Source: Channallabes apus (lineage: Eukaryota; Chordata; Actinopteri; Siluriformes; Clariidae). Taken from it: a DNA stretch of 64,000 nucleotides. Under the pieces are notes generated by a model, which saw only the letters and a list, made by a program, of their open reading frames with translations, was not told the origin of the DNA and made no database searches. The position numbers were made by a program, and so were the translations under genes. Shown piece by piece: positions 1 through 64,000 of the stretch (position 1 is its first letter; every line of letters starts with the position of its first letter). The stretch is from positions 8,591,579 through 8,655,578 of the forward strand of contig CM060115.1 of assembly GCA_030522415.1 (NCBI GenBank), written 5' to 3'.

Positions 1-480
1 CAAGGCACCCATCATGCATAATGTTCTCTGGTGGCAGGGTTGCTTCAGTTGATCAGGTCTAGGCTTAGCAAAATTATGTGGCAATAAAATTAAGCCAAGT
101 TATTACAGTATGTCTTTCATTCATTCATCCATTCAACTTTTATACTTTTAAACACATCTGCAACACATTGTGGGAAATTCGGAACACCAATCAGCCTACA
201 GTAATTTGCATGTCTTTGAACTATGGGATGAGACTGAGGTGCTCGGGAAGAAACTCACCCGGGGCGGAAATCAAACCCTTGATCCTGGAGATGTGAGGAG
301 ACCACTATTCCTGTTATAGTGCTGTATTTTATCACATCTATAAAGATTGATTCTTACCTCATGGCACAGGTACTGTATATTCCCGGACTCGGTCTATCTG
401 AGTCTGAGAGCACAAGGAATCATTTTCACATATGCATTCGCCACCACATTGTGTGCTGAAGACGGTCAAATTAAATATTA
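1..480 (+). mobile_element. Tc1-like transposase remnant, split by a SINE
   Basis: Two blocks (about 1-104 and 357-475) resemble the middle of a fish Tc1-like transposase gene: the stretch around GGTTGCTTCAGTTGATCAGG and GTGGCAATAAAAT, then the ATTTTCACA region. The same sequence recurs at 14,728-14,940, 50,265-50,645 and, inverted, at 63,885-64,000. No open frame survives. A SINE lies between the blocks. A TACTGTA in GGCACAGGTACTGTATATTCC looks like a 5-bp insertion, because the family I recall reads through here without it. Confidence 0.6.
114..306 (-). repeat. Mermaid-type SINE fragment
   Basis: Reverse-oriented SINE. The ATTCATTC tail is at 117-130, and the body includes the CACCAATCAGCC and TGCATGTCTTTG blocks seen in the other copies. 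This copy carries TACAGTA at 197-203, where six sister copies in this window read straight from CCTA into ATNTGCATG. Confidence 0.7.
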
Positions 481-604
481 GGATGTGTGATTTTTCTTTC
501 TTTCTTTCTTTATATTCTGTTATTTTTGGCCAGGCTTGGATTCCAATGACAAATTATCTGCCTATGATCAAATGTGTTGAACACATACAGTGCAGGCATC
601 TAAT

Positions 605-1060
605 AAGCAACAGAACTGCATAGTGTTAGCATAAGTTAACATTAACTAACTAGCCAACAATATACTGTATACTGAAAAATTCTACATTTCTGTCAGAGTT
701 CTATAATATAGCATTTTTTTTTTTTACTACAGTAGATGGATGTTTTTCTATTTCAACTAACAAGCTAGCTAGCTGAGAATCCTCTCTAATGAGTCTGCTA
801 CGTTATGTTATGCTAGCACAGCACCGGACCACAAACATTCATCATTTTGCTAATTAGTTCTCACACAGTGTGCTTTAATCATAGCACACAACCACAATGT
901 TTTCAACTTTTGTAAATATTTAGACTAATAAGAATACTATTTCGCTAACTTATTGCCTTACTGTATATACAGCTTATTTTATTGAAGAAATGTTATGATT
1001 AGCGGTCTGACTTGTCTTCATATTTCTGCTTAATTGAGGGGGGAAAAAAACTCTTCATTT
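605..1060. repeat. Unclassified TAGC-rich dispersed repeat, copy 1
   Basis: The stretch is rich in GCTAGCTAGC-like words and ends near GATTAGCGGTC ... CTTAATTGAGG. The same end block recurs at about 12,120-12,150, so I treat 605-1,060 and 11,565-12,180 as two diverged copies. No coding potential or terminal repeats were recognised. Confidence 0.35.
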
Positions 1061-1324
1061 AATTGAGTGTCTAAGCAAAGGCTAATCCCTTTTACCCCAA
1101 GAAAAGGTTTGGACATATAAAACTACCACGGGCCATGAATAAGTTACAGAATCACCATTAGTCATGAGGAACGCAAGAAGAAATGTGTAATTAATCAGGA
1201 ATGTACTGTAGCAGAGCAACTCCATTCTCCCTAGGAATGGGGACAGGAAATAAGGGACAAAACACCTACCTGCTCTTAAAGGTATCATTGCTGAATATCT
1301 ACACATTTTACTCATTGTCTATAC

Positions 1325-1584
1325 AGCTTTATCTAGTATAGAGGGTTGCTGAGGGCCTGGAGCCTATCCCAGGAGATGAGGCGGGGTACACACTGCCAAT
1401 CCTTTGCAGGGCACACACTACGGGCAGTTTAGGAACACCACTTAGCCTAGTCTTTGGGAGGAAACCATCAAGCACAGGGAGAACATGCAAACTCCATGCA
1501 CAAAGATCCGAGGCAGGAATCGAACCCGTACCCTGGAGGTGCAAGGTGACAGTGCCTCGCCGCTACACCACCGTGCCACCCCCT
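1325..1584 (-). repeat. Mermaid-type SINE
   Basis: Near full-length reverse copy. From left to right it shows the GGAGCCTATCCCAGG block, GCAGGGCACACACTACG, CAAACTCCATGCAC, the B-box complement GGAATCGAACCC, and the head CGCTACACCACCGTGCCACC. Short frames across it are repeat artefacts. Confidence 0.8.
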
Positions 1585-1699
1585 CTTCACATCTGCCTGT
1601 CCTATTTCTCTGACAGCACACCCATGTTGAATAACACCTTTAAAGCAATTGCTTGAATTACACAACTTGACTCTATTGTTCACTGTGGCTATAAATAAG

Positions 1700-2125
1700 A
1701 CCAGCCAGGTGTCATTTCAGCCCACAGGCTTCCACAGAGAATTAAAGAATTAATTGCTTGTTAATTTTAATATTTTGCAGCCTGACATGTTAATTGCTTT
1801 TTTTTTTTCCTGTAAAAGGATTGTGTGACACACAAGGGTTTTTCTTTTTCCAAATAAAAAAAAAATTAAATTAAGGGGCTTCCTAAGCTTTTCCACAAAC
1901 AATTAAGACGGAAATCTTATACAAGTTTCTTCTAAACCCACTTTAAATAAAAAAATCCCCATACTGTATACTTGTGGTGCAAATTACATTTGAATTAATC
2001 AGCAAGCGGCAGATGGCCGTAATCTGATTAAAAGCTTGGAGAGGCCCCTTTCTGTGTGATTTATAAATGAGGCATGAAAGCCAAGACTTAGAATCATGAC
2101 AATCATGCGATGTAATGAAGCAATT
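1700..2125. other. Non-repetitive stretch, possible conserved noncoding DNA
   Basis: I recognise no gene or repeat here. The block around 2,000-2,115 has balanced base composition and homeodomain-like TAATCTGATTAAA words, unlike the repeat debris around it. Conservation cannot be judged from one sequence. Confidence 0.2.
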
Positions 2126-2129
2126 TTCT

Positions 2130-2665
2130 TATCTATATAAATTAAAGAAAAGTTTTGTCTGTACATTGGTCAACTCGCTTTTTCAATGTCCTTATTGACA
2201 TTGGAGGACCCAAAAGGAGGTCTTAAATTTTTTTTTCTGTCTGTATGTCTGTCTGTATGTCTGTCCAGCCAATTTTGTCACAGCATCACGCAAAACTGTC
2301 TAAACAGAATTTGATAAAAACTAAACCAGTCTTTAGGTATCTGCCTAAAGTTAAAAGTGCATCATAAATTAAATCAAAATGTTGAGTAAAAGGGAAGTTA
2401 TGAGCAGTTTTGTGCCAGATTATGTCACAGCATCTAGCGCTTTTTTGGATTCATTTAGCGCTTCTTCCCCTCATGGTGGGCGTGGCCAATCGACGCGATA
2501 GTTTACTGTACCATGTATAGACAGAGTATGCGGAAGACACAGAAATGACTGTAATGCACGTACAAGCTGCCATAACCCTCAAGAAACAGAAACAAAAGTG
2601 CGACAAAAAAAAAAAAAAAAAGGGACGTACACTATGAAAACTGAACCTTGAGTCATAAATGATGT
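2130..2665 (+). repeat. Dispersed repeat, possible non-autonomous Helitron, copy 1
   Basis: It starts TATCTATATAAATTAAAG ... TTTTGTCTGTACATTGGTC, then TGTCTGTCCAGCC, a GTCACAGCATCACGCAAAACTG block, and a run of A before GTACACTATGAAAACTGA. The whole order recurs inverted at 11,085-11,560. The Helitron class is a guess from the TCTATATA start and the lack of terminal inverted repeats. Confidence 0.5.
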
Positions 2666-2714
2666 CGCACAAATTTCTGGAAAATCTTTATCCGACAATG
2701 ACAGGTAGTATGTT

Positions 2715-2880
2715 AATGCACTATACTGTAATTCCCAAAAGTTTGTGGACATCTGACCAAAGTACTCACGTGTGGTTCCTTGAAAGAGTTTACACATTTG
2801 TATTTGTTTAATGCTGTAGCATTACAGTTTCCCTTCACTTGAACTAAGAGGCCTAAGAATGACCATGTGCCCTTGGTGGG
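2715..2880. mobile_element. Tc1-type MITE fragment
   Basis: It contains CCAAAAGTTTGTGGACATCTGACC, a terminal sequence known from many fish Tc1-type MITEs, followed by GCTGTAGCATTACAGTTTCCC. Only one end is seen. A related piece is at 12,650-12,790. Confidence 0.5.
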
Positions 2881-4260
2881 AAGGATTGTATCGTGTATAT
2901 TTTTTCTTTTTAAAAAAACTTTTCAAACAGCGATTACTTCCTGTGAACTTGTGTTTGAACTTGTGATAGTCTAAAAAGGCTGTCCTTATAGGAGACGTGG
3001 GAATATATGGTTGCCAGGTCTCCTAAAATCTTTACCAATTAAAATGCAAATAAAGCTCCAGGCACAAATGAAAATAGCTTCGATGAAGAAAATGAAGACC
3101 TAGTTTCTGGCTTTTTAATGATCGTTAAAACCAATGCACAAATAAATGTGGAACCCAGGTGCGCATTTTTTAAATTAAACTGTATTACACTATTTTCAGT
3201 GGGGAAAAAAAGATCAGACATCAAAGATATCCTAAACCACTCATCCAACCTCATTAAAAGTCCAGATGGCAGTGACGTCATGACACATACAGTACCTTAG
3301 CCAGAGCAGAGCACTCAGACCACATGGCACTTAAGCACTTAGTACAGTATTATGCGATTTTGACACTGCTGTTAGATCATTCAGACATGAACATCAGATA
3401 CTAGGTTTTAAACTCAAATAAGAACTGTGTATGCCTTAACCAGCTGGATTTCTAAATTCTAGTCTTGGAGCCATACAACATGCCAACATGCCCTCGGTGG
3501 CTTCGGTTGGCTCCATGACTAGGCCCACATATCTTAATTTGCTGCTAAATTGCACTACAAATAACCATTTTGTGCTCTGTGCCAAAACTTCGCTGTACCT
3601 ACAGTATTGAGGTTGCGTAAGTTCTAGTGATAAGTATAAGTCTAAAATGTAAGGGCTACATAACCCTTCAGTCAATAACACTTAAAATAGAAAGCTTTTA
3701 GCATGTAGAGAATATTCAACAAAACAAAAATATAAGTACTGTGTAGTCCAGGACCATTGGTCTAAACCAAATAGCCTATTCAACTGTTGATGCCATTGAT
3801 CAAAGTGCACCATTAGCACCAGCCTGTGATGAAAAGAACTCTGTTTGCAAGTTCTGATTGCATTTGCAAAGTTAATTAACAAGAAAGCTTCTTTAGTATG
3901 CACCATATGACATGATCCTGATCATCCACAGAGGAACAGCGGGTCTGTGGGTGCATGATGGCAGGGAGAATGAGAACCTCCATGACAAACACAGAGCTAC
4001 AAGCTGTTAGTATATTCAAAGGAGTGGAGAAATCCTAATAATAAATGAGAAAAGGAAAAAAAAAACCCATGGAAAGCCATGGTCATTACTATTGGTGCTT
4101 ACACAGTTACAGTATGTGTGACTTATTTATATCAATTTATTTTAAGTACGTAAATGATTTACCTGGGTCTATGTTGGTGTGGTTTAAGTTAAGGTAGAAA
4201 TTATGCTTTCGTCATGTTAATAATCTTTCTGATTTTGTTTTAGAATAAATTTCATTCATA
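2881..4260. other. No gene seen
   Basis: AT-rich sequence with several TAC(A/T)GTA motifs (about 3,287, 3,343, 3,597, 4,107) and a short poly-A run. The open frames here are short and resemble no protein I know. Confidence 0.4.
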
Positions 4261-4267
4261 AAAAATA

Positions 4268-4601
4268 TTCAGTACCACTTCAAAGTTTGGACACAAGTTT
4301 GGATTTATTTTCTATGTTCAAGAACAATACTGTTTTTATTTTTCAAAACTATGAAATAACACTATTAGGTTAGGCATTGGGTAATTACTGTAAGTAACAA
4401 CTTTTTATTATAAGGAAGGTCAGCTTGCAAGAACAGTATTGTCAAGTGCATTTGCAAAGCCTATTACGCGTCATGGTGAACCTGTACAAAAGAGATGATT
4501 GCATAGTTTAGCATTATTTTACAAAGCAGAAAGAAATACAAATCAGAAAAGACCATGGGATTAGAAGGTGTATCCAAACGTTTGACTGGTAGTGTTGTCT
4601 A
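4268..4601. mobile_element. Tc1-type MITE with terminal inverted repeats
   Basis: The left end reads GTACCACTTCAAAGTTTGGACACA. The right end, TGTATCCAAACGTTTGACTGGTAGTG, is its imperfect inverted repeat. This terminus is common in fish Tc1-derived elements. The 330-bp interior is AT-rich and noncoding. Confidence 0.65.
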
Positions 4602-4689
4602 GAAATTAGAATGATATTCCAAATTAAACTGCCAAAACTTTAAATAATATTCTGGGCAGCTAAGTGGTGTATAACAAAAAAAGTCCACA

Positions 4690-5165
4690 TTTCAACAATG
4701 AGTCAAAGCCAAAAGAGTAAACTTGCCTTGCAAGTTGCATACTCTCAATCCCCTGTCAATCACAGTGGCACTAGCCAATCATGGGCATCTGTGAGGTTAT
4801 GTATAAGGAAGACCGTAGAAGAATCTCAAGTCCAACCCGGGACTTGAGATTAAATTTCTTGTGAATGAAGGAGTAAAAATGATTGACATTTATGGAAGAC
4901 ATCACATACAGCGATAGACTCTTAGTCACAGTAAAACATTTGAATGTTGCAAAGTTTTAAAGAAGGCTGTATAATCCCGGCTGAGGTGGCTCAGAGCCCA
5001 CTGCAGTTGTTCGCAAGAACATTCAGCAAGTGGAACACCTGAAACATCTTTGAAAATTGATGGAAAACTGGTCACCAACTTGGTGGAAGAGATTCACCTG
5101 TTTGTGGGAACTGTACACACAATCATTCACCAACACCACTTGGACATCACAGGACCTTGGCCTCA
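4690..5165 (+). pseudogene. mariner transposase N-terminal remnant
   Basis: With frameshifts and stops, the plus strand still spells pieces of the mariner N-terminal helix-turn-helix half: KFLVNEGVKMIDIYGRHH near 4,855, SKTFE near 4,935, then VGTVHTIIHQHH near 5,105. The C-terminal DDD catalytic half is absent. No intact product is possible. Confidence 0.6.
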
Positions 5166-5484
5166 GGAACTACAGTTTTAACCTCGCCCCTTACACAAAG
5201 AAAATATATTTCTCTATATATTAACTGTCAATGTATTGATTGGTTTAGTGTTCTGATCTACTGGTAAATTGAAAAGATTTTATATGTTTTATATGCTTTT
5301 ATATTTTATATGTGGATAATCCTTGTTGCTACACTAACTGATACTAACTAATAATTAACAGGAACAAAAGACATTCATATTCCAAAATATATTCACAATA
5401 TACAGAATAATACAGTATATTGTATCAATATATTACAATGTATTGAAAAATATATAAGGAATGTATTTTATATTTAACAATATA

Positions 5485-5513
5485 AAAAAAAAAAAAAATA
5501 AAAAAAAAAAAAA

Positions 5514-5545
<32 letters not shown>

Positions 5546-5548
5546 TAT
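5485..5548. repeat. Poly-A and (AT)n simple repeat
   Basis: Interrupted A runs followed by about 13 AT units. Confidence 0.9.
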
Positions 5549-5717
5549 TTTACAATATGCTTATATGTTAATGTAGTTTGAACAAAATGGACATTATAGG
5601 CATTAATCAGAGCACACCGACAAAGTAAAAGTGTGTGTATAACTCTTTAACATTCATAAAGTTTCAAAAATGTTTCAATTCAAAGTATAAATATCATGTT
5701 TTTGTCTTCATTGCAAT

Positions 5718-5741
5718 ACACACACACACACACACACACAT
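5718..5741. repeat. (CA)n microsatellite
   Basis: About 11 CA units. Confidence 0.9.
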
Positions 5742-5749
5742 ATATTAGA

Positions 5750-7790: not shown

Positions 7791-7794
7791 GTAC

Positions 7795-7916
7795 GAATAT
7801 TTTAGGGGCATCAATTATCCTAATCTGCATGTCCTTGGACTGTGGGAGGAAACCTGAGTACCCGGAGGAAACCCACCAAGCATGGGCAGAACATGCACAC
7901 AGATCTGAGGCAGGTC
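7795..7916 (-). repeat. Mermaid-type SINE fragment
   Basis: It contains the blocks CAATTATCCTAATCTGCATG, GTGGGAGGAAACC and GTACCCGGAGGAAACCCACC in reverse orientation. Both ends are missing. Confidence 0.75.
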
Positions 7917-7919
7917 TTT

Positions 7920-9600: not shown

Positions 9601-9689
9601 TCCCAAAGTAGCAGCTATCAGAGGTGGTTATGGTACCAGGGTAACACACACAGGAGGTGATGTGGTGTCTGAATGGAGGGATTTTGATC

Positions 9690-10367: not shown

Positions 10368-10370
<3 letters not shown>

Positions 10371-12890: not shown

Positions 12891-12979
12891 GGTACAAACC
12901 GGATTCCAAAAAAGTTGGGACACTAAACCAATTGTGAATAAAAACTGAATGCAATGATGTGGAGATGGTGAGGAGACCA

Positions 12980-13938
12980 GTTTCTCAAGTTTAGAAATAG
13001 GAATGCTCTCCCATTCTTGTCTAATACTGTACAGGCCTCTAACTGTTCAATCGTCTTGGGCCTTCTTTGTCGCACCTTCCTCTTTATGATGCGCCAAATG
13101 TTCTCTACAGGGGAAAGATCTGGACTGCAGACTGGCCATTTCAGTACCCGGATCCTTCTCCTACGCAGCCATGATGTTGTGATTGATGCAGAATGTGGTC
13201 TGGCATTATCTTGTTGAAAAATGCAGGGTCTTCCCTGAAAGAGATGACGTCTGGATGGGAGCATATGTTGTTCTAGAACCTGAATATATTTTTCTGCATT
13301 GATGGTGCCTTTCCAGACATGCAAGCTGCCCAGGCCACACGCACTCATGCAACCCCATACCATCAGAGATGCAGGCTTCTGAACTGAGCGTTGATAACAA
13401 CTTGGGTTGTCCTTGTCCTCTTTGGTCCGGATGACATGGCGTCCCACATTTCCAACAAGAACTTCGAATCGTGACTCGTCTGACCACAGAACAGTCTTCC
13501 ATTTTGCCACACTCCATTTTAAATGATCCCTGGCCCAATGAAAACGCCTGTGCTTGTGGATCTTGCTTAGAAATGGCTTCTTCTTTGCACTGTCAAGTTT
13601 CAGCTGGCAACGGCGGATGGCACGGTGGATTGTGTTCACTGACAATGGTTTCTGGAAGTATTCCTGAGCCCATTCTGTGATTCCTTTACAGTAGCATTCC
13701 TGTTTGTGGTGCAGTGTCGTTTAAGGGCCCGGAGATCACGGGCATCCAGTATGGTTTTACGCCCTTGACCCTTACGCACAGAGATTGTTCCAGATTCTCT
13801 GAATCTTCGGATGATATTATGCATAGTTGATGATGATAACTGCAAAGTCTTTGGAATTTTTCGATGGGTAACACCTTTCTGATATTGCTCCACTATCTTT
13901 CTGTGCAACATTGTGGGAATTGGTGATCCTCTACCCAT
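12980..13938 (-). pseudogene. Tc1-family transposase pseudogene
   Basis: The enzyme would cut and paste its own element at TA sites. The likely start is the ATG at 13,936-13,938 (MGRGSPIP). An N-terminal paired-type helix-turn-helix (QYQKGVTHRK ... MHNIIRRFRESG) is followed by the GRKT-like linker. The catalytic triad is visible as WSDESRF, FQQDNARPH and SPVENIW, with 34 residues between the second Asp and the Glu, which is the Tc1 pattern. Two breaks are evident. Near 13,680 one T is missing from a run, shifting the frame between NATVKE and the next segment. At 13,027-13,031 a CTGTA insertion shifts the frame after QLEAC. Without that insertion the minus strand continues as IRQEWESIPISKLEKLVS, the expected Tc1 C-terminal segment. 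The last residues are lost by deletion. It is not functional. Confidence 0.9.
13025..13031. other. TACTGTA scar breaking the Tc1 transposase frame
   Basis: A 5-bp CTGTA (13,027-13,031) follows a TA inside a conserved protein-coding segment. Its removal restores the frame from EAC into IRQEWE. This is the best single-site evidence that TACTGTA in this window arises by insertion of C(A/T)GTA at TA. Confidence 0.85.
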
Positions 13939-14289
13939 CTTGGCTTCTGAGAGACACTGCCACTCTGAGAAGCTCTTTTTATACCCAATCATGTTGCCAA
14001 TTAACCTAATTACTGTTAATTGGTCTTCCAGCTCTTCGTTATTCTCAAATTTACTTTTTCCAGCCTCTTATTGCTACTTGTCCCAACTTTTTGGGGATTT
14101 GTTGACACCGTGAAATTTGGAATCAACATATTTTTCCTTTAAAATGATACATTTTCTCGTATTAAACTTTTGATCTGTCATCTATGTTCAATTCTGAATA
14201 AAATATTGACATTTGCCATCTCCACATCATTGCATTCAGTTTTTATTCACAATTTGTTTAGTGTCCCAACTTTTTTGGGATCCGGTTTG

Positions 14290-14725
14290 TACAAAGATGC
14301 ATCTATTATACTGTAGCCACTGTACATAACTGTACCCTGTACACTTGGTACTATGGACCACATTCAAGGATACTTTCAAAAATATATTACACAAGTATGT
14401 TTCCCATAATGGTAATATTCAGATTATATGGTAGCATTGTATATATGTAACATTTAATTAAATACCATAATGTACTTTAAAACCTCGGATATTACATGCG
14501 TACAGTAATGTGTAACTGCCCATACTAGTAGTATGTACTAGCATATCTAATATGGTACAGTGTGCACAAACATACAGTACAGTACCATAGTAGATACCTG
14601 ATGAAGTTTGGTACAGTAGCCACTGCGGTATCCGAGAAGTGCTATGGTATTCACAAAGGTATTGTGGCACACATCATGGTACTCTCGTGATACCCACCAT
14701 CTACCGGTACTCTATAAAGTTATGA
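14290..14725 (-). repeat. Dispersed GTAC-rich repeat, copy 1
   Basis: The segment from about 14,455 to 14,725 is an inverted homologue of 43,715-43,960. On the minus strand it starts CTTTATAGAGTACC and contains CAGGTATCTA, TATGTTTGT and AGTACATACTACT. It carries TACAGTA motifs at 14,573-14,584 (tandem) and 14,612-14,618 that copy 2 lacks. Its class is unknown. Confidence 0.6.
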
Positions 14726-18550: not shown

Positions 18551-18591
18551 TGCCGTCTGCAATTTTTGTTAAAAACAAAAATGTTGATTTA

Positions 18592-18923
18592 CAAACCGGA
18601 TTCCAAAAAAGTTGGGACACTAAACAAATTGTGAATAAAAACTGAATGCAATGATGTGGAGATGGCAAATGTCAATATTTTATTCAGAATAGAACATAAA
18701 TCACGGAACAAAAGTTTAAACTGAGAAAATGTATCATTTTAAGGGAAAAATATGGTGAATCAAAATGTCATGGTGTCAACAAATCGCAAAAAAGTTGGGA
18801 CAAGGCCATTTTCACCAGTGTGTGGCATCTCCCCTTCTTCTTACAACACTCAACAGACGTCTGGGGACCGAGGAGACCAGTTTCTCAAGTTTAGAAATAG
18901 GACACAATTTGGAATCCGGTTTG
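18592..18923. mobile_element. Tc1-derived MITE of the 12,895 family
   Basis: Flanked by TA (18,590-18,591; 18,924-18,925). It begins CAAACCGGATTCC and ends GGAATCCGGTTTG. It keeps about 230 bp of one end and the GACCAGTTTCTCAAGTTTAG piece of the transposase C-terminus, so it is an internal-deletion product of the same Tc1 family. It has no TAC(A/T)GTA motif. Confidence 0.92.
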
Positions 18924-22074: not shown

Positions 22075-22197
22075 ATCTAGAGCAGGGGTGGCGAACCTGT
22101 TTGCCATAATGAGCCAAAAAAAAATATTTATCACTACAAAGAGTCACACAACAGATGTGCAAACAACAGAATCACAACTTATACACTTAATTACATA

Positions 22198-22680
22198 ATA
22201 CCGCTATCTCACCTAAGCGGTTTCGCGCGGTGGACGGAAGTACGGTTCATTATGATTCACCGCGAGTTTTTGGCGCTGTGAGTACGTTTCCATCTTTCCG
22301 CGCGAAAAATTAAACGTTTAATTTCTTTGCCGGTCCTCGCGGAAGTCCTTACAGAACTTCACGGAGCGACAGCGGAACGTCGGCGAGCAATCACGGCGAC
22401 TCACGGTGCCTAACTCCGCAGTTCTCATGGATTTTAATACCCCTATCTCACCTATGCGGTTTGACTCTCGGTGAGATGTGGTGTCGGGCACCATGAGTTG
22501 CCGCGATTGCCCGCCGACGTTCCGCTGACGTTCCGTGAAGTTCGCCAAGGTCCGCAAAGTTCCGCGAGGCCCGCCAAAAAAATTAAACATGTTTAATTTT
22601 TATCGCGGAAAGATGGAAACGTACCACAACGGCATTTACGGCCACCGCGCGAAACTGCATAGGTGAGATAGCGGTATAAT
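22198..22680. mobile_element. Foldback MITE nested in the hAT element
   Basis: Two long arms of about 230 bp face each other. The left arm begins ATACCGCTATCTCACCTAAG and the right arm ends in its complement, CATAGGTGAGATAGCGGTAT. Inside both arms the blocks TTTCGCGCGGTGG, ACGTTTCCATCTTTCCGCG, AATTAAAC ... GTTTAATT, CGGAACGTCGGCG and GTGAGATAG recur in mirror order. The whole element could fold into one imperfect hairpin. It is CpG-rich, unlike its surroundings, and has no coding capacity. The family is not known to me. Confidence 0.8.
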
Positions 22681-22684: not shown

Positions 22685-23024
22685 CTACCTCCTTTTATTT
22701 GACTCAGTGGGACACTTGGTTTCCACAATCTTTTTTAAGTCTGGCTTGTATTCAGTCGTAGTAAATCTTTCACGTGTGACAGTAAGAGCAGAGCGATGTT
22801 TGATTTCACTTGTTTCAGTGTCGAAAAAAGAGATTCACAGATGTAAGTTGACCCAAACATTGACAGTAGTTTGAGTGGAGCCTGTTTGACATTGAGATAT
22901 CTCTCAATCGGCACAATCTTCCAAAACTCCACGGTTCCTTCCTTCCATTCAGACAAAAATGTTCTGTGCTCATCTTCGTATTTGGGCTTAGCTGTACGCT
23001 TCCCTGACTCTGCCATGATGATTG
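22685..23024 (-). pseudogene. hAT transposase C-terminal fragment (dimerisation domain)
   Basis: The minus strand encodes ESGKRTAKPKYEDEHRTF near 23,000, then FGSTYICESLFSTLKQVKS, the hATC dimerisation signature as found in ZBED/GTF2IRD2-like hAT proteins. One frameshift follows; another frame then gives EYKPDLKKIVETKCPTES and a stop near the 3' terminus. The catalytic RNase H-like core is missing. Confidence 0.75.
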
Positions 23025-23254
23025 ACAGGCTACTAACGAACTTCACGTCAATCGTGTTAGTCTATGTTAAATCGCGCGAGAGGTTGTGTAAAAAAAATCA
23101 TTCAAATGCATACCCCTTTATTGGAAAATTATGTTTTGACATTTAAAAAATAATTTGCAAGTGTAAACACAGAACGTGGATAGATTGAAGACGAGCAGCG
23201 AAAGAGCCGCAAGTGGCTCACGAGCCGTGGGTTCACCACCCCTGATCTAGACCA

Positions 23255-35965: not shown

Positions 35966-36418
35966 AGTGATGCATATACGTAGTCCCCAGTTCCCGATTT
36001 GTAATCTGCGTGCAAACCATTCCACATTATACAAGACAAACACCTCACTATATGCTAAACTGTTCTGTTTCCTTACCTCTCTTGCCACATTAAACACTAT
36101 GTGCCCATCCTGAGGGATACAGTGTCCTGTTTCTGCCTGAGGCCAACAGACAGGATTCCTCCTTTAAGGTAAGCGCTATACCCAGTAAACAGTAGACCTT
36201 AGTAGGATGGCTCAATCTAGGAGAGATCAAGTGGGTTTACCGATTTGATATGTTTTGACGTGAATCTTTTGACAGCACTTTAAATTGATGTCATCAAAAG
36301 TAAGTAGTGGGATGTTACGTCCCTGACGTATTATATACTGTATATATATTTTTTTTCTGTGTTGCCTGCTCTCTTGGGTGTGTTTCCCTCTCTCTGTTTT
36401 TTTTTTTAAACAGGTTTA

Positions 36419-36585
36419 ATTGGCCTCTACCGTGGAGAGGGGTGCTGATTGGAGGATCAGTCAGTGATGTGTGCCTTACTCCCGCCTCCTGTACCTCCAT
36501 TGGACAAGCACTTCCTGAACCTGTGTGCCTTACTCCCGCCTCCTGTGTTGCCATTGGACTAGAACTTTGTGCAGCTCTATTTAAA
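36419..36585 (+). promoter_or_regulatory. LTR U3 promoter: four inverted CCAAT boxes and a TATA box
   Basis: ATTGG, the inverted CCAAT box bound by NF-Y, occurs at 36,419, 36,448, 36,499 and 36,553. TATTTAAA at 36,578-36,585 is a good TATA box, placing transcription start near 36,610. The 3' LTR has the same elements 5,694 bp downstream. The factor assignment is from motif knowledge only. Confidence 0.6.
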
Positions 36586-36972
36586 CGCCATCCTGCCTGC
36601 TGCTCGGGAGACAACTGCTTGATTTGTTATGGTGTTTTGCTGGTATATATTGGACTCATTGTGTATTGACTTTTGCTGCCCTTTTCGACCTCGATTTTTG
36701 CTATTGCCCTTTGTATATAATTTTGTATATAACTTTGTAAATATCATCGTGTATATAGTGGTAAGTAGGGAGTCGACGCCCTTTTTGTTCTTCCCCCATT
36801 TTTTCTCCTGGTTATGCTAGTCAGGGAGTTAGGTAAGACTATATGTATTTTGGTATGTTTTTGTTGTTAGGTTAGGTAGACTTTTGTGATTCTAGTTAGT
36901 GGGTTTGGTTTATTATTTTGGCATTGTCGGCTCCTGAAGATATTACCACCTTTGTAAATATTTGTACACAGA

Positions 36973-36978
36973 ATTAAA
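36973..36978 (+). promoter_or_regulatory. Possible LTR polyadenylation signal ATTAAA
   Basis: ATTAAA is the commonest variant of AATAAA and sits in the LTR after the predicted start. The functional copy would be the one in the 3' LTR (about 42,667). Confidence 0.4.
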
Positions 36979-37088
36979 CTGCAGTTGATCTCAACCCCCC
37001 CATTTATTTCCCCATTTACCTTCTTTCCTTTTCCTAATTTATTTTATTGTCTGTTGCGGCCTGACCCTAGACCAGGACGTAACAGAAT

Positions 37089-37101
37089 TGGGGGCTCGTC
37101 C
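37089..37101 (+). other. Primer-binding site, tRNA-Pro
   Basis: TGGGGGCTCGTCC starts 4 nt after the LTR and matches 13 nt of the 3' end of tRNA-Pro, the primer also used by murine leukaemia virus-type elements. Confidence 0.85.
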
Positions 37102-37181
37102 ATTGTTTTGTTGTTTATCTGCTGGTTTTTGGTTTGTTTGTTTGTTTTTGGCTATAGGAGGTGTGTGTGTTTGTCACTAAT

Positions 37182-40100
37182 ATGGCAACCAAATTTAATT
37201 TAGACCAGTTTGTTATTTGTCCTTCAGTGGAGCATTTTGAAAGGTGCAGGAAGGATGACTTATTGTTGCTTGCTGACTTTTACAGCATCTCGGTCCCACG
37301 GAGCGCGAATAAGCGCGACATTAAACAAATGCTTCAGGCAGAGCTGATTAAACAGCGCATTCTTATGGATCCTACCGAGGCGGGTGTTGTATATCAGTCC
37401 GGTAAGTCCGAGGATTCAGCTACAGCGGAGGCTGTGGTCGAACCCAAGGACCCCGCACACATAGATCCTGCGGTAGTAGGTCCGTCACTGAATGACCCGA
37501 AGCTCGCGCTGCAATTGAAGCAGTTGGACCTAGAGTTAGCCCGTCAGCATTATGAATCTCAAATGCTTCAATTTCGTATGGTGGAACTCGAGTCTCAGAG
37601 GGAAATTAAATTAAAGGAATTGGAGTTGGCACTAAGGAGTAAGCCAGCTTCAGATTCTCTTGTTCATGGCCCTCTGTCTCCTGTTCGAGCATCATCCCCT
37701 GTTCTGCATCCTGCACCTGCATCTCCTGTTCTGCATCCGGCACCTACAACCCCTGTACAGGCGAGTGACTCACCACCCGCACCTAGTGGCTCTTCAGCTG
37801 TAAGTTCATCTGGCTTTGACATTAGCAAGCATATTGCTTTAGTTCCTATGTTTAGAGAAAGTGAGGTAGATACATACTTCACTGTATTTGAGCGTATTGC
37901 AGCCACACTACAGTGGCCTAGAAGCATCTGGTCTCTTCTATTGCAATGCAAGTTTGTTGGGAAGGCACAGGAAGTGTGTTCCGCTTTAAGTTTGGAGCAG
38001 AGTTTGGATTATGAAACTGTTAAAAATGCTGTTTTACGTGCTTATGAGCTTGTCCCTGAGGCCTACCGGCAGAAATTTCGTAAACATGTAAAATCTGCCA
38101 ATCAAACCTATGTTGAGTTTGCACGTGAGAAGTCTGTGATGTTTGATAAATGGTGCACTGCCAGTAAAGTTAGTACTTTTGATGGATTGAAGGAGTTAAT
38201 TTTGTTGGAGGAATTTAAGAATTGTGTTGCGGAGAAGGTGGTAGTTTATCTAAATGAGCAAAAGATCACTTCACTTTCAAGTGCAGCCGTTTCAGCTGAT
38301 GAGTTCACACTGACTCATAAAATCACTTTCTCTCCCCCACGAGGTGAAGATTCCCAACGTAGTGTTAGAAGCCCTCCAAGTTCTCAGAAAGTTACTCCGG
38401 AGAGTCGGGAATGTTTCTACTGTCATGAAAGGGGTCATCTCATTGCTGCTTGTCCTATCTTGTCTCGTAAAAACCGTAGGAAAATGCAGACCCAGCCCAA
38501 AAGTGTCGCATTAACACACGTACCATCAATGCACCAGAAAGATGGTAAATGCTCACAATCCCCTGTAGATCCTGCTTTTGAACCTTTTATTATGGAAGGT
38601 GTTGTGTCCATATCTAATTCTGAGTTAGAACAAAAACCACTTCGCCTGCTGAGGGACACAGGTTCTGCCCAGTCATTCATTTTAGAGGGTATTCTGCCAT
38701 TGTCTGATAAAACTAGTTGTGGTGCAGATGTACTAGTACAAGGCATTGAAATGGAAATAGTGAAGGCTCCTCTACATAACATATTTCTGAGATCTAGGTT
38801 GGTTACGGGTCTTGTTAAGGTGGCAGTCCGTTCTCAGCTGCCAGTAAAAGGCGTTTCATTCATTTTAGGCAATGACTTAGCTGGGGGGAATGTTTGCCAG
38901 TTGCCTATTGTTACAGATGTACCTGTAATTGATGAGAATGAGACAATCTCGCGTAAATTTCCACGAGTGTTTAACTCGTGTGTGGTCACACGTGCTCAGG
39001 CTCGTAAGAAGAGAAGTGCGGAAGATTTTTCCGATTCATTCATGTGTGCGGAAGACCCCATATTTAAACTTTCTGTTGTGCCTTCACCCCCTGTGAATAA
39101 TCCAGATACTGTCTCTACTCCAATCTTTGGACCCAGTTGTGCTAAACCTTTATTTGGACGTGATCAGCTGGTAAATGCTCAAAAATCTGATAACTCCCTT
39201 CAACCATGTTTCATTTCGGCAGTTAAGGAAGCAGAATTGTCACAGCGGCCTACTGCATATTTTGTTAAGGATCAGCTGTTAATGCGTAAATGGACACCTA
39301 AAAATTCTGATAACAACTGGAGTTCAGTATTCCAGGTTGTGGTCCCAAAACCTTATAGAAGTCATGTCTTAAGTATTGCTCATGACCATGACTTGTCTGG
39401 GCATCTGGGTATTCGAAAAACATATGCTCGAATTCTAAAGCATTTCTTTTGGCCGGCTCTGAAATCAGATGTAGCATCCTACTGTCGTTCGTGCTCAATC
39501 TGCCAAATTGCAGGTAAACCTAATCAGGTCATCCCTCGTGCTCCACTCTGCCCAATTCCTGTGATGGGAGAACCTTTTGAGAGAATTTTGATAGACTGTG
39601 TAGGTCCCCTTCCTCGAACAAAGTCGGGAAATTCATATTTACTCTCTTTAATGTGTGCTGCATCTAGATATCCTGAGGCTATACCACTTCGCAACATTAA
39701 GTCTCGAGCTATCGTACGTGCCCTTACCAAGTTCTTTTCTACTTTCGGGCTACCCAAGTACGTCCAGTCTGACCGTGGTTCCAATTTTATGTCGGCCCTG
39801 TTTAAAAGAGTGTTGGAAGAGCTTGATATAAAGCATCAGGTCTCTAGTGCCTATCACCCAGAATCACAAGGTGTGTTAGAAAGATTCCACCAAACACTAA
39901 AATCGATGCTTCGCACATATTGCTTGCAGCACAGAAAGGACTGGGACGAAGCAGTTCCATTCCTACTATTTGCAATACGGGATACCGTACAAGAGTCTCT
40001 TGGATTTAGCCCAGCAGAGTTGGTTTTTGGCCATTCTGTTCGAGGTCCTTTGAAAGTGCTTCAGGAGAAAATGTTGTCTCCTACTTCGGTCAGTCCTCTA

Positions 40101-41972
40101 CCTAGAAACGTTTTAGATTATGTAAGCCTGGTTCGAGAACGCCTGCACACGGCATGCAAGTTAGCTCATCGTTCGCTCACCTCCTCCCAGGCCAAGATGA
40201 AGAGGAGATTCGATAAGAAGGCTGTGGTACGTGAATTTAAAGAAGGTGACCAAGTGCTTGCTTTACTCCCGATTACAGGTTCTGCCCTTCAAGCTAGGTT
40301 TTCTGGTCCATATATTATTAGTTCTCGATTAAGTAGCACCGATTATGTGATAAAGACACCTGACAGAAGGAGGAAGACTCGTGTCTGCCATGTAAATATG
40401 CTAAAACCTTTTTTCTCTCTAAATACTGAGGAGATTTCCCCAATCACCCCTGTTGCGATTGTCTCCACAGGCATTACACCTGAATATTCTCCAGAATTCG
40501 ACGGTCTCAATTTGGGTAGAGCATCTGTCCCTTGTGCGAGTTTGTCAAACTCTGTGTGGCTAAGTAAACTTGAGTGCAAACTTGTCCATCTACCAGCTTC
40601 CGCCCAGGAAGACATCATTAGGCTCATAAGGAGTCACCCCGCACTCTTTTCAGACACACCCTCACGCACAACCGTCATTGAACATGACATAGATGTAGGC
40701 GACCACCGACCTATTAAACAAAATGCCTACCGAATTAACCCGACCAAACGTGCTATAATGAAGCAGGAGACTGATTATTTGCTAAGAAATCAGTTAGCCA
40801 TTCCCAGTTGTAGTCCATGGTGCTCTCCCTGTCTTTTGGTTCCAAAATCTGATAATACTTATCGATTTTGCACAGATTATCGTAAAGTTAACTCTGTTAC
40901 CAAGGCTGATTCATTTCCTCTTCCCCGGATGGAAGATTGTGTTGACCGGATAGGTCAGGCAAGGTATGTCACAAAATTAGACCTTCTAAAAGGCTACTGG
41001 CAAGTTCCACTCACTCAGCGAGCCTCTGAAATCTCTGCTTTTGCTACACCTGATAGATTTCTTCAGTATACAGTCATGGCTTTTGGTTTAAGAAATGCAC
41101 CTGCTACCTTTCAGCGTTTAATGACACAAGTCTTAGGTGATGTGAATAATTGTGAAGCCTACCTTGATGATGTAGTTGTGTTTGCAGATACCTGGAATGA
41201 GCATCTCTCTGTTTTAAACTGTGTGTTTGATCGCCTCCAGAATGCTTCTCTGACTCTGAACCTTGAAAAGTGTGAATTCGCTCATGCTACTGTTACCTAT
41301 TTAGGCAAGCAGGTGGGACAAGGCATGGTTCGCCCGCTGGATGCTAAAGTGCAGGCAATTAAGGCATTTCCAGCCCCTAGGACAAAACGAGAACTCAGAC
41401 GTTTCTTAGGTATGGCTGGATATTACCGAAGTTTCTGTAGAAACTTTTCAGATGTGGTCCTTCCACTAACAAACCTTTTTCGTGACTCTATCCCTTTTGT
41501 GTGGTCTGCTACTTGTCAAGATGCATTTAATGCTGTGAAGCTATTGCTGTGCAGTGCACCTGTTCTTTCTGCCCCTGATTTTAGCAAACCCTTCCAACTT
41601 GAAGTAGATGCCAGTGGTACCGGGATAGGTGCAGTACTCACCCAAGAAGATGCTCATGGTATCGATCACCCTGTGAGTTTCTTCTCCCGTAAATTTAATC
41701 GTTGCCAGCTTAACTATAGTACCATCGAGAAGGAAGCTCTTGCCCTCTTACTTGCACTTCAGCATTTTGAGGTGTATATTGGATCCAGTCCTGAACCCAT
41801 AGTGGTGTTTACTGATCACAACCCTCTCGTATTCTTACAACGTATGACTAATAGTAATCAACGACTCATGCGCTGGGCCATGATTGTACAGGGATTCAAT
41901 ATTGACATTCGGCATAAAAAGGGATCTGAAAACATTGTAGCAGACACGTTATCTCGCTGTGAGTCTGAGTAG
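37182..41972 (+). CDS. Gag-Pol polyprotein, Gmr1-like retrotransposon (1,596 aa)
   Basis: I chose the ATG at 37,182 (MATKFN); the frame is open upstream but without an ATG. Residues about 105-155 look like a coiled coil, followed by a Pro-rich stretch. Residues 212-362 form a capsid-like helical region (FRESEVDTYF ... VYLNEQK) resembling the SCAN domain. A CCHC zinc knuckle CFYCHERGHLIAAC is at 411-424. The protease shows DTGSAQSF at 492. Integrase has a zinc-binding H736/H741/C771/C774 and catalytic D805, D864, E900 (35 residues between the last two), with a GPYI motif at 1042. Reverse transcriptase follows from about 1165, with D1267 and YLDD at 1327-1330. RNase H residues include D1476, TDHN at 1544 and the last Asp at 1588. 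Gag and pol share one frame with no frameshift or stop between them. All catalytic residues I looked for are present. Confidence 0.95.
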   Translation: MATKFNLDQFVICPSVEHFERCRKDDLLLLADFYSISVPRSANKRDIKQMLQAELIKQRILMDPTEAGVVYQSGKSEDSATAEAVVEPKDPAHIDPAVVGPSLNDPKLALQLKQLDLELARQHYESQMLQFRMVELESQREIKLKELELALRSKPASDSLVHGPLSPVRASSPVLHPAPASPVLHPAPTTPVQASDSPPAPSGSSAVSSSGFDISKHIALVPMFRESEVDTYFTVFERIAATLQWPRSIWSLLLQCKFVGKAQEVCSALSLEQSLDYETVKNAVLRAYELVPEAYRQKFRKHVKSANQTYVEFAREKSVMFDKWCTASKVSTFDGLKELILLEEFKNCVAEKVVVYLNEQKITSLSSAAVSADEFTLTHKITFSPPRGEDSQRSVRSPPSSQKVTPESRECFYCHERGHLIAACPILSRKNRRKMQTQPKSVALTHVPSMHQKDGKCSQSPVDPAFEPFIMEGVVSISNSELEQKPLRLLRDTGSAQSFILEGILPLSDKTSCGADVLVQGIEMEIVKAPLHNIFLRSRLVTGLVKVAVRSQLPVKGVSFILGNDLAGGNVCQLPIVTDVPVIDENETISRKFPRVFNSCVVTRAQARKKRSAEDFSDSFMCAEDPIFKLSVVPSPPVNNPDTVSTPIFGPSCAKPLFGRDQLVNAQKSDNSLQPCFISAVKEAELSQRPTAYFVKDQLLMRKWTPKNSDNNWSSVFQVVVPKPYRSHVLSIAHDHDLSGHLGIRKTYARILKHFFWPALKSDVASYCRSCSICQIAGKPNQVIPRAPLCPIPVMGEPFERILIDCVGPLPRTKSGNSYLLSLMCAASRYPEAIPLRNIKSRAIVRALTKFFSTFGLPKYVQSDRGSNFMSALFKRVLEELDIKHQVSSAYHPESQGVLERFHQTLKSMLRTYCLQHRKDWDEAVPFLLFAIRDTVQESLGFSPAELVFGHSVRGPLKVLQEKMLSPTSVSPLPRNVLDYVSLVRERLHTACKLAHRSLTSSQAKMKRRFDKKAVVREFKEGDQVLALLPITGSALQARFSGPYIISSRLSSTDYVIKTPDRRRKTRVCHVNMLKPFFSLNTEEISPITPVAIVSTGITPEYSPEFDGLNLGRASVPCASLSNSVWLSKLECKLVHLPASAQEDIIRLIRSHPALFSDTPSRTTVIEHDIDVGDHRPIKQNAYRINPTKRAIMKQETDYLLRNQLAIPSCSPWCSPCLLVPKSDNTYRFCTDYRKVNSVTKADSFPLPRMEDCVDRIGQARYVTKLDLLKGYWQVPLTQRASEISAFATPDRFLQYTVMAFGLRNAPATFQRLMTQVLGDVNNCEAYLDDVVVFADTWNEHLSVLNCVFDRLQNASLTLNLEKCEFAHATVTYLGKQVGQGMVRPLDAKVQAIKAFPAPRTKRELRRFLGMAGYYRSFCRNFSDVVLPLTNLFRDSIPFVWSATCQDAFNAVKLLLCSAPVLSAPDFSKPFQLEVDASGTGIGAVLTQEDAHGIDHPVSFFSRKFNRCQLNYSTIEKEALALLLALQHFEVYIGSSPEPIVVFTDHNPLVFLQRMTNSNQRLMRWAMIVQGFNIDIRHKKGSENIVADTLSRCESE

Positions 41973-41993
41973 GATTGAACTTGATGTTCAATC
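41973..41993 (+). other. Perfect small hairpin between stop codon and polypurine tract
   Basis: GATTGAAC, a five-base loop TTGAT, then GTTCAATC: an 8-bp perfect stem that begins on the base after the TAG stop and ends 2 nt before the polypurine tract. A G-U and an A-U pair could extend it. Role unknown. Confidence 0.7.
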
Positions 41994-41995
41994 TT

Positions 41996-42006
41996 AAGGG
42001 GGAGGG
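41996..42006 (+). other. Polypurine tract
   Basis: AAGGGGGAGGG lies directly before the 3' LTR and would prime plus-strand DNA synthesis. Confidence 0.9.
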
Positions 42007-42778
42007 TGTTACGTCCCTGACGTATTATATACTGTATATATATTTTTTTTCTGTGTTGCCTGCTCTCTTGGGTGTGTTTCCCTCTCTCTGTTTTTTTTTT
42101 TAAACAGGTTTAATTGGCCTCTACCGTGGAGAGGGGTGCTGATTGGAGGATCAGTCAGTGATGTGTGCCTTACTCCCGCCTCCTGTACCTCCATTGGACA
42201 AGCACTTCCTGAACCTGTGTGCCTTACTCCCGCCTCCTGTGTTGCCATTGGACTAGAACTTTGTGCAGCTCTATTTAAACGCCATCCTGCCTGCTGCTCG
42301 GGAGACAACTGCTTGATTTGTTATGGTGTTTTGCTGGTATATATTGGACTCATTGTGTATTGACTTTTGCTGCCCTTTTCGACCTCGATTTTTGCTATTG
42401 CCCTTTGTATATAATTTTGTATATAACTTTGTAAATATCATCGTGTATATAGTGGTAAGTAGGGAGTCGACGCCCTTTTTGTTCTTCCCCCATTTTTTCT
42501 CCTGGTTATGCTAGTCAGGGAGTTAGGTAAGACTATATGTATTTTGGTATGTTTTTGTTGTTAGGTTAGGTAGACTTTTGTGATTCTAGTTAGTGGGTTT
42601 GGTTTATTATTTTGGCATTGTCGGCTCCTGAAGATATTACCACCTTTGTAAATATTTGTACACAGAATTAAACTGCAGTTGATCTCAACCCCCCCATTTA
42701 TTTCCCCATTTACCTTCTTTCCTTTTCCTAATTTATTTTATTGTCTGTTGCGGCCTGACCCTAGACCAGGACGTAACA
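42007..42778 (+). repeat. 3' LTR
   Basis: 772 bp, starts TGTTACGTCC and ends GGACGTAACA. I saw no mismatch with the 5' LTR. Confidence 0.95.
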
Positions 42779-43084: not shown

Positions 43085-43245
43085 GGTTGGTAATGGGGTA
43101 CACCAGGTTGGGGTGCCAATCCATTGCAGGGCACACATACTGTACTTACTCACACACTACGAGCAATTAGACTAATCTGCATGTCTTTGGATTTTATTGG
43201 AGGAAACCGAAGTACCCGGAGGAAAGCCAACAAGCACAACAAGGA
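43085..43245 (-). repeat. Mermaid-type SINE fragment
   Basis: Reverse copy: GGGGTGCCAATCCATTGCAGGG, TTAGACTAATCTGCATG, AAGTACCCGGAGGAAAGCC. TACTGTA at about 43,138 interrupts the CACACA region. Confidence 0.7.
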
Positions 43246-43714: not shown

Positions 43715-43960
43715 GGCACCATAGGACTTTATAGAGTACCAGCGTGGGACTTCAGTGGGTACCGTGATAGTACTATTGGGACAATTGCTGAAAACCATGG
43801 TAATCATTGGGTACCCCAATGGGTACTAAAGTTCCGCAGGTATCTAGAATGGTATGTTTGTACATACTGTACTATACTAGATATATTACAGTAGTACATA
43901 CTACTGGCATGATATAGTACAGGCAGTACCATAAACTTGTTTAATGTATTTTTGACATTA
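43715..43960 (+). repeat. Dispersed GTAC-rich repeat, copy 2
   Basis: Homologous to the reverse complement of 14,455-14,725: CTTTATAGAGTACC, CGCAGGTATCTAGAATGG, TATGTTTGT, AGTACATACTACT. At 43,887-43,893 it has TACAGTA, absent from copy 1. It lacks the tandem and single motifs that copy 1 carries at 14,573 and 14,612. Confidence 0.6.
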
Positions 43961-46924: not shown

Positions 46925-61475
<14,551 letters not shown>

Positions 61476-61667
61476 ATACCATGAGGGTGAGTCAAAAATT
61501 ACCCACACTATGGTTATATTGAAACGTCTGTTGGTCTTATCAGCACTTTCCGTTCAAAGCTACTGTCTTCCCCAGTCACTGCTGTGCAGGTGTAAATGTG
61601 TTACATCAGTTCATACTGTATGTACTGTAACTGCGGTGCGAGTAAAAATGGACGCCCCACTTGTGAT

Positions 61668-62460
61668 TAAGGCCTTGTTCACACGGGCGTTAAATTTTTG
61701 GATAAACGAACGAGCTCTGAACGTCCTAGACGTTTATGTTGCGTTTTGTAGTGCCGCTCGATTGACTTCTACACTGGCGTCCGTTTGTCTCTGTCTAACG
61801 CCAGCCTGCAGCCCAAATTGTAGTTTGTGTGTTTAACCTGTGGGGGGCAGTGTGTCGAGAACTAGATATGAAAGCCCTGGTCATTTTATTTGAGGTGCCT
61901 CCTTTTAATATGGACCATTTTGCTATATTAGACATTAATCTTATTGTTTTTAAAATTGTAATTAAATTATTATATTTTATATAATATATAAAAATCTTTT
62001 TAAAAATAATACGGCGATGTAGGGAGAGAAAAAAAAACGCTGCCACTACTGGGTTCACCCTCTGACTGCATGACGTCGGATTAAAGGGAGTTTTTTGTGG
62101 TTTATGAAGAAATGCGAACATTTCCGCGCAAGTTTTATTTTTTAAGCATTTTATTTTTGCCTTTTTTCCGCATTTCCCTCTGTATAGCATGTAGGATCAT
62201 GGGATATATCCGGTCCTCAGAAGCATAAAATGGACGCGGAGAAAACGAACTACAGTAGACACGGTTTCCTTGCGTTCGTTGGGATTTGAACGCCAAGAAA
62301 AAGCTGCATGCAACGTTTTTTTAACACCGTATAAACACGCAGCCGGACAAACGCACGTCACCGAAGCCCGTGTGAACACGTCATTGACTCCTATGTGTAG
62401 AAAACCCTCTGCGCTTCATCCGCGGTCACCGGACGCTACAAACGGCAGAAAAACGGTCGA
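61668..62460 (-). repeat. Insert in the mariner, with repeat copy 2
   Basis: The part 62,190-62,460 is the inverted homologue of 18,125-18,475. Words like GTTCACACGGGC occur near both edges (61,676 and, inverted, about 62,368), suggesting a MITE. TACAGTA at 62,251-62,257 is absent at the matching place in copy 1 (CTTCTATCGTTTTC). Confidence 0.5.
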
Positions 62461-63110
62461 AGAGTATAAGCAAAAGCGTTTGGATATCTTCCAAAAAAAA
62501 AAAAAACTGGACAGAGACTTTAAGGCAACTTAAAGAGAATCATTACTGGTGACGAGATGCGGATTCATCACTACAAGCCTGAGAATAAACGGCACAGTTT
62601 GGAATGGGAACATCCTCAATCGCTGACCTAGAAAATGTTCAGAAGTCAACCATCAGCTGGAAAATTGATTGCTTACAGTTTTTTGGGATTTTTAAGGGCC
62701 AGAATTGGAACATTATCAGGATGAAGGTTCAACAATCAACAGTGCTTGTTACAATGAGACGCTTATTGAAGAGCTGAAGCCTAAACTCTGGATTAAACCA
62801 GAGGACTGCTATCCAAGGGCGTCGTGATCTTGTATGATGATGCACATCTGCACACTTCTGCCCACACTGTCGACTCTCTGCAAAATCTTAGTATTGAGGT
62901 GTTAAAGCATCCTCCATATAGTCCAGATCTTGCTCCATTAGACTTTCACCTGTTTGGTCCCCTGAAAGCAGCCCTACAAGGACAAAGATTCACTTCTGAT
63001 AAAGACAGTGAAGACAGCGGTGCATTTGTGGCTCACAGCTCAGCCTGAAAGTATTTTTTAATGGGGGAATACGAAAGCTTGTAGACAGATGGACAAAGAG
63101 AAATAAATTA
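62460..63110 (+). pseudogene. mariner transposase catalytic-region pseudogene
   Basis: Readable pieces: YKQKRLDIFQ near 62,465; ITGDEMRIHHYKPENKRHSL near 62,550, with the first catalytic Asp; LYDDAHLHTSAHTVDSLQ near 62,835, with the second Asp; PPYSPDLAPLDFHLFGPL near 62,912, with the third. The final Asp-Leu-Ala-Pro-Leu-Asp signature is of mariner DD34D type. Several frameshifts and stops separate the pieces. Confidence 0.8.
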
Positions 63111-63124
63111 AGAGTGTCATTGTC

Positions 63125-63880
63125 AGCCTCTTATTCATTTAATGTTACTGTACATTACATTAATATACAGTATAGCGTCCAGTACACCAGCACATTTATA
63201 TAAAACACGTGCCCTACAGTATATGGTGCAACAGAAATACTTGTAAATCACTGAAATACTTTTTAAAAGAGATGCAATCCAGGGGTATTTGTAAACATTT
63301 CTGCTACTACCGAAGTCAAAAATCTGACTTGCTGCCATATTATACTGTATGAGTCACGCACAGTAAAATGATTGCTCTCTTGTTGCTTTGTCGTAGCATG
63401 CAGAGGGAGAAAAAAGGAGATAAGAGAGATGCTAAACTTGGCCTCCATTATAGATGCTCTCTACATCATTACCCATACGGGTCAGAACGGCTCTAGCATC
63501 TCTGGCTCTGGAAAAATCAATGCCTAATAGAGTGAAGAGGGGCAGGGGCACCTAGGGACATCCTCTGTACATGATACAAACTACCATTTTTCCAGCTATT
63601 GGTGACTCAAATATCACTATGTCTAAATATCGCTATGTCTAAATACAGGTATCGCTATGTCTCTGTCGCTATGTGTATGTACTGTACTTGCAGGGAATTT
63701 TATTTAATAATGGCAAAAATCATTCTGTCTATCACTCTAGACAATTAAATGCTGAGAACACATAATCATGTACTGTATTACTTAGTGTAATTAACGATGC
63801 TAATATAAGTGTAATGGTAATATAAAAAAATTTAAAAAGTCCCGAAATATGGCTGTGTCATCTGGGAACTAACAATCTGT
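63125..63880. other. No gene seen
   Basis: Dense in TAC(A/T)GTA: about 63,145, 63,164, 63,214, 63,342, 63,678 and 63,769. CGCTATGTCT is repeated several times at 63,600-63,675. Confidence 0.35.
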
Positions 63881-63884
63881 TCAT

Positions 63885-64000
63885 TCAGTACATTCAGGTC
63901 GTCAGCTGACTTCATTTTATTGCCACATACAGAGAGTTGTCCTGTGACCACTATGCATGATGGGTGCATCGCTTCATGCTCTTCCCTCCTTACCCTGATG
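63885..64000 (-). mobile_element. Tc1-like transposase fragment, runs off the window
   Basis: The reverse complement reads CATCAGGGTAAGGAGGGAAG, CATCATGCATAGTGGTCAC, TGTGGCAATAAAATGAAGTC, the same gene segment as 50,265-50,470. Confidence 0.65.

Follow-up and report, generated by a model that had tools for sequence, protein, structure and literature searches.

Excision of the transposon Sleeping Beauty (SB) leaves the heptamer TAC(A/T)GTA (PMC3432063), and repair proceeds by end joining with retention of the CAG overhang (PMC8151067). In fishes, ZB, a zebrafish element of Tc1/mariner type, has the target preference ATATATAT, called very similar to that of SB and Bari, and forms footprints of 0-3 bp that are reportedly SB-like (PMC7913693). 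Passer, a fish element of the pogo superfamily, likewise duplicates a TA target and leaves small footprints of 0-4 bp, and its target consensus is AAGTACTT (PMC9976928). Families of Tc1 elements ending in CAGT are common in salmon, so that suitable sources exist in fish (PMC2198921). Here we analyse a stretch of 64,000 bases from Channallabes apus (assembly GCA_030522415.1, contig CM060115.1, positions 8,591,579 to 8,655,578 of the forward strand), hereafter the window, in which TAC(A/T)GTA occurs 114 times. With a probability of roughly 90%, most of these heptamers are excision footprints of CAG-ended Tc1/SB-type transposons that formerly sat at TA sites. This interpretation was first put forward from the letters of the window alone (the sequence-only reading) and is supported by the specificity of the word, by palindromic flanks, by 5-bp gains in paralogues and in a Tc1 reading frame, and by a retrotransposon interior free of heptamers.

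In the proposed mechanism a CAG-ended transposon of Tc1/SB type would insert at a TA and later leave. As in the established SB pathway, the transposase would cut a few bases inside each transposon end and leave the broken flanks with the TA and an overhanging CAG. End joining would pair the overhangs around an A:A mismatch, and mismatch repair would then yield either CAG or CTG, so that 5 bp are gained overall at one TA. The A:A mismatch is a step of SB footprint formation. The window resembles the SB system in the 7-mer, the 5-bp gain at TA, the palindromic target preference and the similar frequency of CAG and CTG forms; it differs in that SB footprints were described for an introduced transposon in cells (PMC3432063, PMC8151067), whereas the copies considered here would be germline scars in a genome sequence, are very dense and have no source element that was found in the window. 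Excision presumably took place at these sites, the source was probably of Tc1/SB type, and the source elements appear to be largely gone.

The set as a whole is defined by counts, shuffles and flank preference:

1..64000, strand not assigned: 114 TAC(A/T)GTA heptamers, about 104 of them above chance.

Counted on the plus strand, TACTGTA occurs 63 times and TACAGTA 51 times, a ratio that is compatible (P 0.30) with the equal frequency expected of SB footprints. At a guanine-plus-cytosine (GC) content of 39%, the dinucleotide-based expectation for both forms together is 9.9, which corresponds to an 11.5-fold excess, and 200 dinucleotide-preserving shuffles gave a mean of 9.5 copies (standard deviation 2.8, maximum 17). 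Among 32 strand-collapsed TAnnnTA classes the runners-up reached 2.3-fold (TAATATA), 2.2-fold (TACCGTA, 6 copies) and 2.1-fold (TATAATA), and the TACGATA class stood at 3 copies for 3.0 expected. The copies above chance amount to one per 615 bp and to 2.2% of the 4,689 TAs. Per 4 kb bin, between 1 and 16 copies were found, the minimum falling at 36-40 kb, mostly inside a young Gypsy-type element that is treated below. The sequence-only reading had estimated about 110 heptamers by eye against roughly a dozen expected, had suggested a comparison with a shuffled background and with other TAnnnTA words, and had proposed one scar per about 600 bp; the estimate came close, the excess is present in the window, and the density is correct for the window only. 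The mouse genome comprises 2.7 Gb. Relative to the more than 300,000 sites given for it (PMC4378557), the density in the window is about 16 times higher.

If the heptamers are scars, the bases outside both TAs represent the former target site. We therefore analysed the flanks of 94 isolated sites, the 20 of 114 copies lying within 16 bp of another copy having been dropped. Outward of the TA, the first base is rich in T and poor in A, the second is A or G and the third is T, with chi-square values against all TAs (3 degrees of freedom) of 23.7, 27.7 and 24.9; further out, positions 4 and 5 gave 7.0 and 5.8, with lesser deviations at positions 6 (13.8) and 8 (10.1). When 94 TAs were drawn at random 20,000 times, the summed statistic never came up to the observed 76.3 (null maximum 37.7). 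Left and right sides are concordant, i.e., the preference is palindromic, and the pattern is absent from 406 other TAnnnTA words. The SB target consensus is AYATATRT. It was matched at at least four of the six flank positions by 39 of 94 heptamers, 705 of 4688 TAs and 71 of the 406 other TAnnnTA words; the heptamer flanks thus show the AT-rich palindromic target preference of Tc1/SB footprints.

The same flanks bear on the alternative that the footprints stem from elements that have CAG ends and insert at TA but belong to a different superfamily, for instance pogo/Tigger/Passer elements or their miniature inverted-repeat transposable elements (MITEs). Tigger-like MITEs of Rhodnius start with TACAGT (PMC4678618), Passer inserts at TA and has small footprints, as mentioned, and no Tc1 element with CAG at both ends was found in the window. 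However, the Passer consensus carries T at the second outward base (PMC9976928), where 67% of the 94 sites have A or G and 18% have T, and the window flanks match the ATATATAT preference of the Tc1 element ZB (PMC7913693). We consider such an origin improbable. ZB itself does not agree with the window in every respect, since its footprints range from 0 to 3 bp, whereas a clear enrichment in the window is confined to the 3-bp form with CAG or CTG.

For 12 of the 114 heptamers a relative was available, ten in paralogue alignments within the window and two judged against transposase proteins; the other 102 had no relative for comparison. Scans of viral_contigs and genome_contigs for DNA of related species yielded no usable locus. 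Six of the 12 are clean gains of 5 or 10 bp, distributed over five loci:

197..203, plus strand: TACAGTA, a 5-bp gain in a dispersed repeat copy; all 7 of 7 other aligned copies lack exactly 5 bases at TA.
13025..13031, minus strand: TACAGTA inside a Tc1 transposase, a predicted 5-bp gain with frame change (protein alignments, frame switch).
14573..14584 (copies 14573/14578), plus strand: tandem TACAGTACAGTA, a private 10-bp gain against the paralogue at 43.8-43.9 kb.
14612..14618, plus strand: TACAGTA, a 5-bp gain against the paralogue at 43.9 kb; the exact gap position depends on the aligner.
43887..43893, plus strand: TACAGTA, a 5-bp gain against the paralogue at 14.5 kb.

At these loci the sequence comparisons indicate a net gain of 5 bp at TA relative to an empty site, as a footprint would be expected to leave. 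A tabulation of insertions agrees with the earlier proposal: the paralogue alignments contain 97 distinct insertions, 11 of which are 5 bp long; four of these 11 hold the heptamer, one being an ambiguous case at 43138, and none of the remaining seven is of the TAnnnTA form.

The transposase carrying the heptamer at 13025 lies at 12.9-13.7 kb on the minus strand, contains the Pfam domains DDE_3 and HTH_Tnp_Tc3_2, and has SB100X as a PDB match (E 7.5e-42). Among the matches listed (120 of 231) it is 96.3% identical over 219 residues to a TCB1 protein of Polypterus senegalus, and the best named carp copy among them reaches 86.6%; horizontal transfer could be the source of the former identity. At the heptamer, which corresponds to query residue 230, 109 of 123 protein alignments stop, and past it the unaltered sequence continues in another frame as IRQEWESIPISKLEKLVSS, identical to homologue P0007. 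A Tc1 element with TACAAACCGG ends was noted at 12893-14291 and a second, shorter copy at 18590-18902.

These gains also bear on the idea that TAC(A/T)GTA is a selected protein-binding motif maintained or spread regionally. The word TACWGTA is palindromic and has been noted beside regulatory motifs of ribosomal protein genes in Caenorhabditis elegans (PMC3575287). A binding motif would not, however, be expected at a raw density of one per about 560 bp (all 114 copies) in repeats and introns alike, nor does it predict the observed origin of comparable copies by 5-bp gain at TA instead of substitution, and one heptamer disrupts a transposase frame. We regard this explanation as scarcely credible.

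The excision reading further agrees with the distribution of heptamers in and around the young retrotransposon:

36279..42778, plus strand: Gypsy-type element with long terminal repeats (LTRs) that are 98.5% identical; its interior (37085-41974) is heptamer-free, and its LTRs carry heptamers at 36336 and 42030.

Where 7.4 heptamers would be expected at its 283 TAs, the interior has none; the 4272 TAs that lie outside the element carry 112 (Fisher P 0.0012). The interior is coding and has 44% GC, so that composition may contribute to the absence, though the test is per TA. A heptamer-free interior in a young element fits scars that accumulate over time. The open frame of the element comprises 1603 residues, in which an integrase-like part, read by eye, precedes the reverse transcriptase, an order that we take to be that of Gmr1-like elements; the first 200 residues gave one match, with 44% identity to Leuciscus waleckii.

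Several observations weigh against the excision reading. The sequence-only reading had claimed an extra C(A/T)GTA at TA in every comparison, which is largely though not invariably borne out; besides the six clean copies, the 12 comprise one approximate, one ambiguous and one contrary case as well as three uninformative ones:

62251..62257, plus strand: TACAGTA; the gap against the paralogue at 18.4 kb measures 7 bp, of which 5 bp lie at TA and 2 bp are additional.
43138..43144, minus strand: TACTGTA on the plus strand, for which the repeat-copy comparison in paralogue alignments is ambiguous.
13687..13693, plus strand: a non-scar heptamer in native transposase coding sequence; NATVKE is encoded across the site in the window and is also present in P0007 and P0013.

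Uninformative are the heptamer at 43865, opposite which the paralogue has a one-base variant and no gap, and the LTR pair at 36336 and 42030, where both copies have the motif at the same place. Copy 14501, just beyond a BLAST match, faces TATGGTA without a gap in a poorly aligned edge and was left out of the 12. The case at 13025 is also less than unique, several listed homologues (e.g., P0001-P0004, P0008 and P0009) losing frame near it without the extra residues of the window; that stretch is therefore breakable in other ways. Furthermore, the window shows no enrichment of alternative footprints such as TACAGCTGTA, TACACTGTA, TACATGTA and TACAGGTA; TATA is enriched (448 vs. 310), a value unreadable as a zero-base footprint owing to TA microsatellites. 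Nor is there a clear excess of decayed scars. One-mismatch forms (19 classes) number 265 copies for 203.4 expected, and after removal of low-complexity words their ratio is 1.30; the 31 control words average 1.11 (standard deviation 0.11) and include two above 1.30, so that the excess is not significant. This suggests that activity was fairly recent or that the test is weak at the 64-kb scale. Dating by decay was tried and rejected: taken at face value, the non-significant excess would give only about 5% mean divergence, and no age is claimed.

Source elements likewise did not come to light in the window: no CAG-ended inverted-repeat pair matching at 17 or more of 24 positions within 3.5 kb was found there. 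With looser anchors, one CAG-ended pair reached 16 of 24 (53836-54168, 333 bp; about 0.4 expected) and was judged unconvincing. One possible single end was recorded:

57234..57258, plus strand: possible CAG-ended transposon end, TA followed by CAGACAGAAGTTTACATA, carrying a heptamer at 57252; no partner end was recognised.

Its sequence resembles the SB terminal repeat. Given that no convincing CAG-ended pair was found, scars seem to outnumber resident elements here, as had been proposed earlier. The arm pairs also speak to the suggestion that the heptamer belongs to the ends or the inside of dispersed repeats or MITEs and was copied along with them, for which the same-place heptamers in both LTRs of the one Gypsy element and the heptamer that is Tc1 coding sequence can be cited. 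On the other side, the heptamers have little flank sequence in common past three bases per side, and among the 1459 near pairs formed by CAG-anchored arms 5 reach 14 of 24, where about 2 were expected from 17109 far pairs, with just one reaching 16; we judge such copying to be very unlikely.

To the points against excision belong, finally, the phase of the tandem copies and the clustering of the heptamers. Besides the tandem at 14573, four perfect tandems emerged from the heptamer count:

53620..53631, plus strand: tandem TACAGTACAGTA.
54057..54068, minus strand: tandem, TACTGTACTGTA on the plus strand.
59174..59185, minus strand: tandem, TACTGTACTGTA on the plus strand.
60479..60490, plus strand: tandem TACAGTACAGTA.

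All five had been noticed in the sequence-only reading at coordinates within 2 bp of these. They are without exception same-phase, perfect mixed-phase tandems (TACAGTACTGTA or TACTGTACAGTA) being absent from the window, whereas independent re-hits predict that half would be mixed (one-sided P 0.03). Two further same-phase pairs lack an outer TA (7697 and 17090), and two mixed pairs likewise lack one. Re-hits of scarred sites could explain the number of tandems, though not the phase bias; duplication of an existing scar is a possible origin of the same-phase tandems. Gaps of up to 100 bp between heptamers number 34, compared with 18.6 expected and a maximum of 31 in 5000 random placements, and gaps of up to 20 bp number 11, compared with 4.0 expected and a maximum of 11 in 5000 placements; four of the latter come close to the 5 bp step of a tandem or to neighbouring steps. 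The clustering may reflect local hot spots or local hopping.

The uniform phase of the five tandems, together with the two same-phase pairs lacking an outer TA, is what replication slippage or tandem duplication specific to C(A/T)GTA would offer as an explanation for the heptamer, and slippage of a scar that already existed could account for it. At the comparable clean loci, however, the relative has a bare TA, which offers no CAGTA or CTGTA as a template, so that slippage would be unable to create them there; nor does slippage predict a palindromic flank preference. As an origin of the heptamers it deserves next to no credence.

With excision as the preferred explanation, the footprint as such is textbook knowledge, and the striking part is how densely it occurs naturally, at about one per 615 bp. 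In the literature searched, which left most subscription journals out of reach, no report of a dense natural record of TAC(A/T)GTA was found; a paper on catfish repeats uses the term 'transposon footprints' once, apparently for the copies themselves (PMC5953449). Extended to the whole genome, the window would translate into one SB-type scar per several hundred bases, adding up to millions, left by a largely vanished family, with excision repair as a leading source of small insertions. This genome-wide density is an extrapolation from one 64-kb window, and we consider the odds of it to be about even. If true, the genome would hold a site-by-site fossil log of cut-and-paste jumps. Transposon history is usually read from surviving copies, whereas scars tally jumps that left no copy. 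If about 2% of TAs were scarred throughout the genome, as about 104 of 4,689 are here, 5-bp insertions would have a leading source in cut-and-paste excision. Excision rates would become measurable, bursts of activity datable and the target preference of lost elements recoverable, and what look like small indels and frameshifts in genomes of this kind may be transposon scars.

With regard to gene content, four minus-strand open stretches (at about 49.3, 54.4, 55.6 and 60.1 kb) match mannosyl-oligosaccharide 1,2-alpha-mannosidase IA, which places the right part of the window within a vertebrate MAN1A-type gene. Of the heptamers, 21 start between 49180 and 60160, none of them in the four mannosidase-matched blocks, the limits of which were set by hand. 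A heptamer at 49178 lies about 20 bp outside a mannosidase IA block and is probably just within an intron next to a splice donor. Elsewhere in the window, a self-comparison revealed the arms of a long imperfect palindrome at 22195-22680, perhaps a MITE or foldback element, and open stretches at 62797-63045 and 22738-23061 resemble, by eye, relics of mariner-type and hAT-type transposases, respectively.

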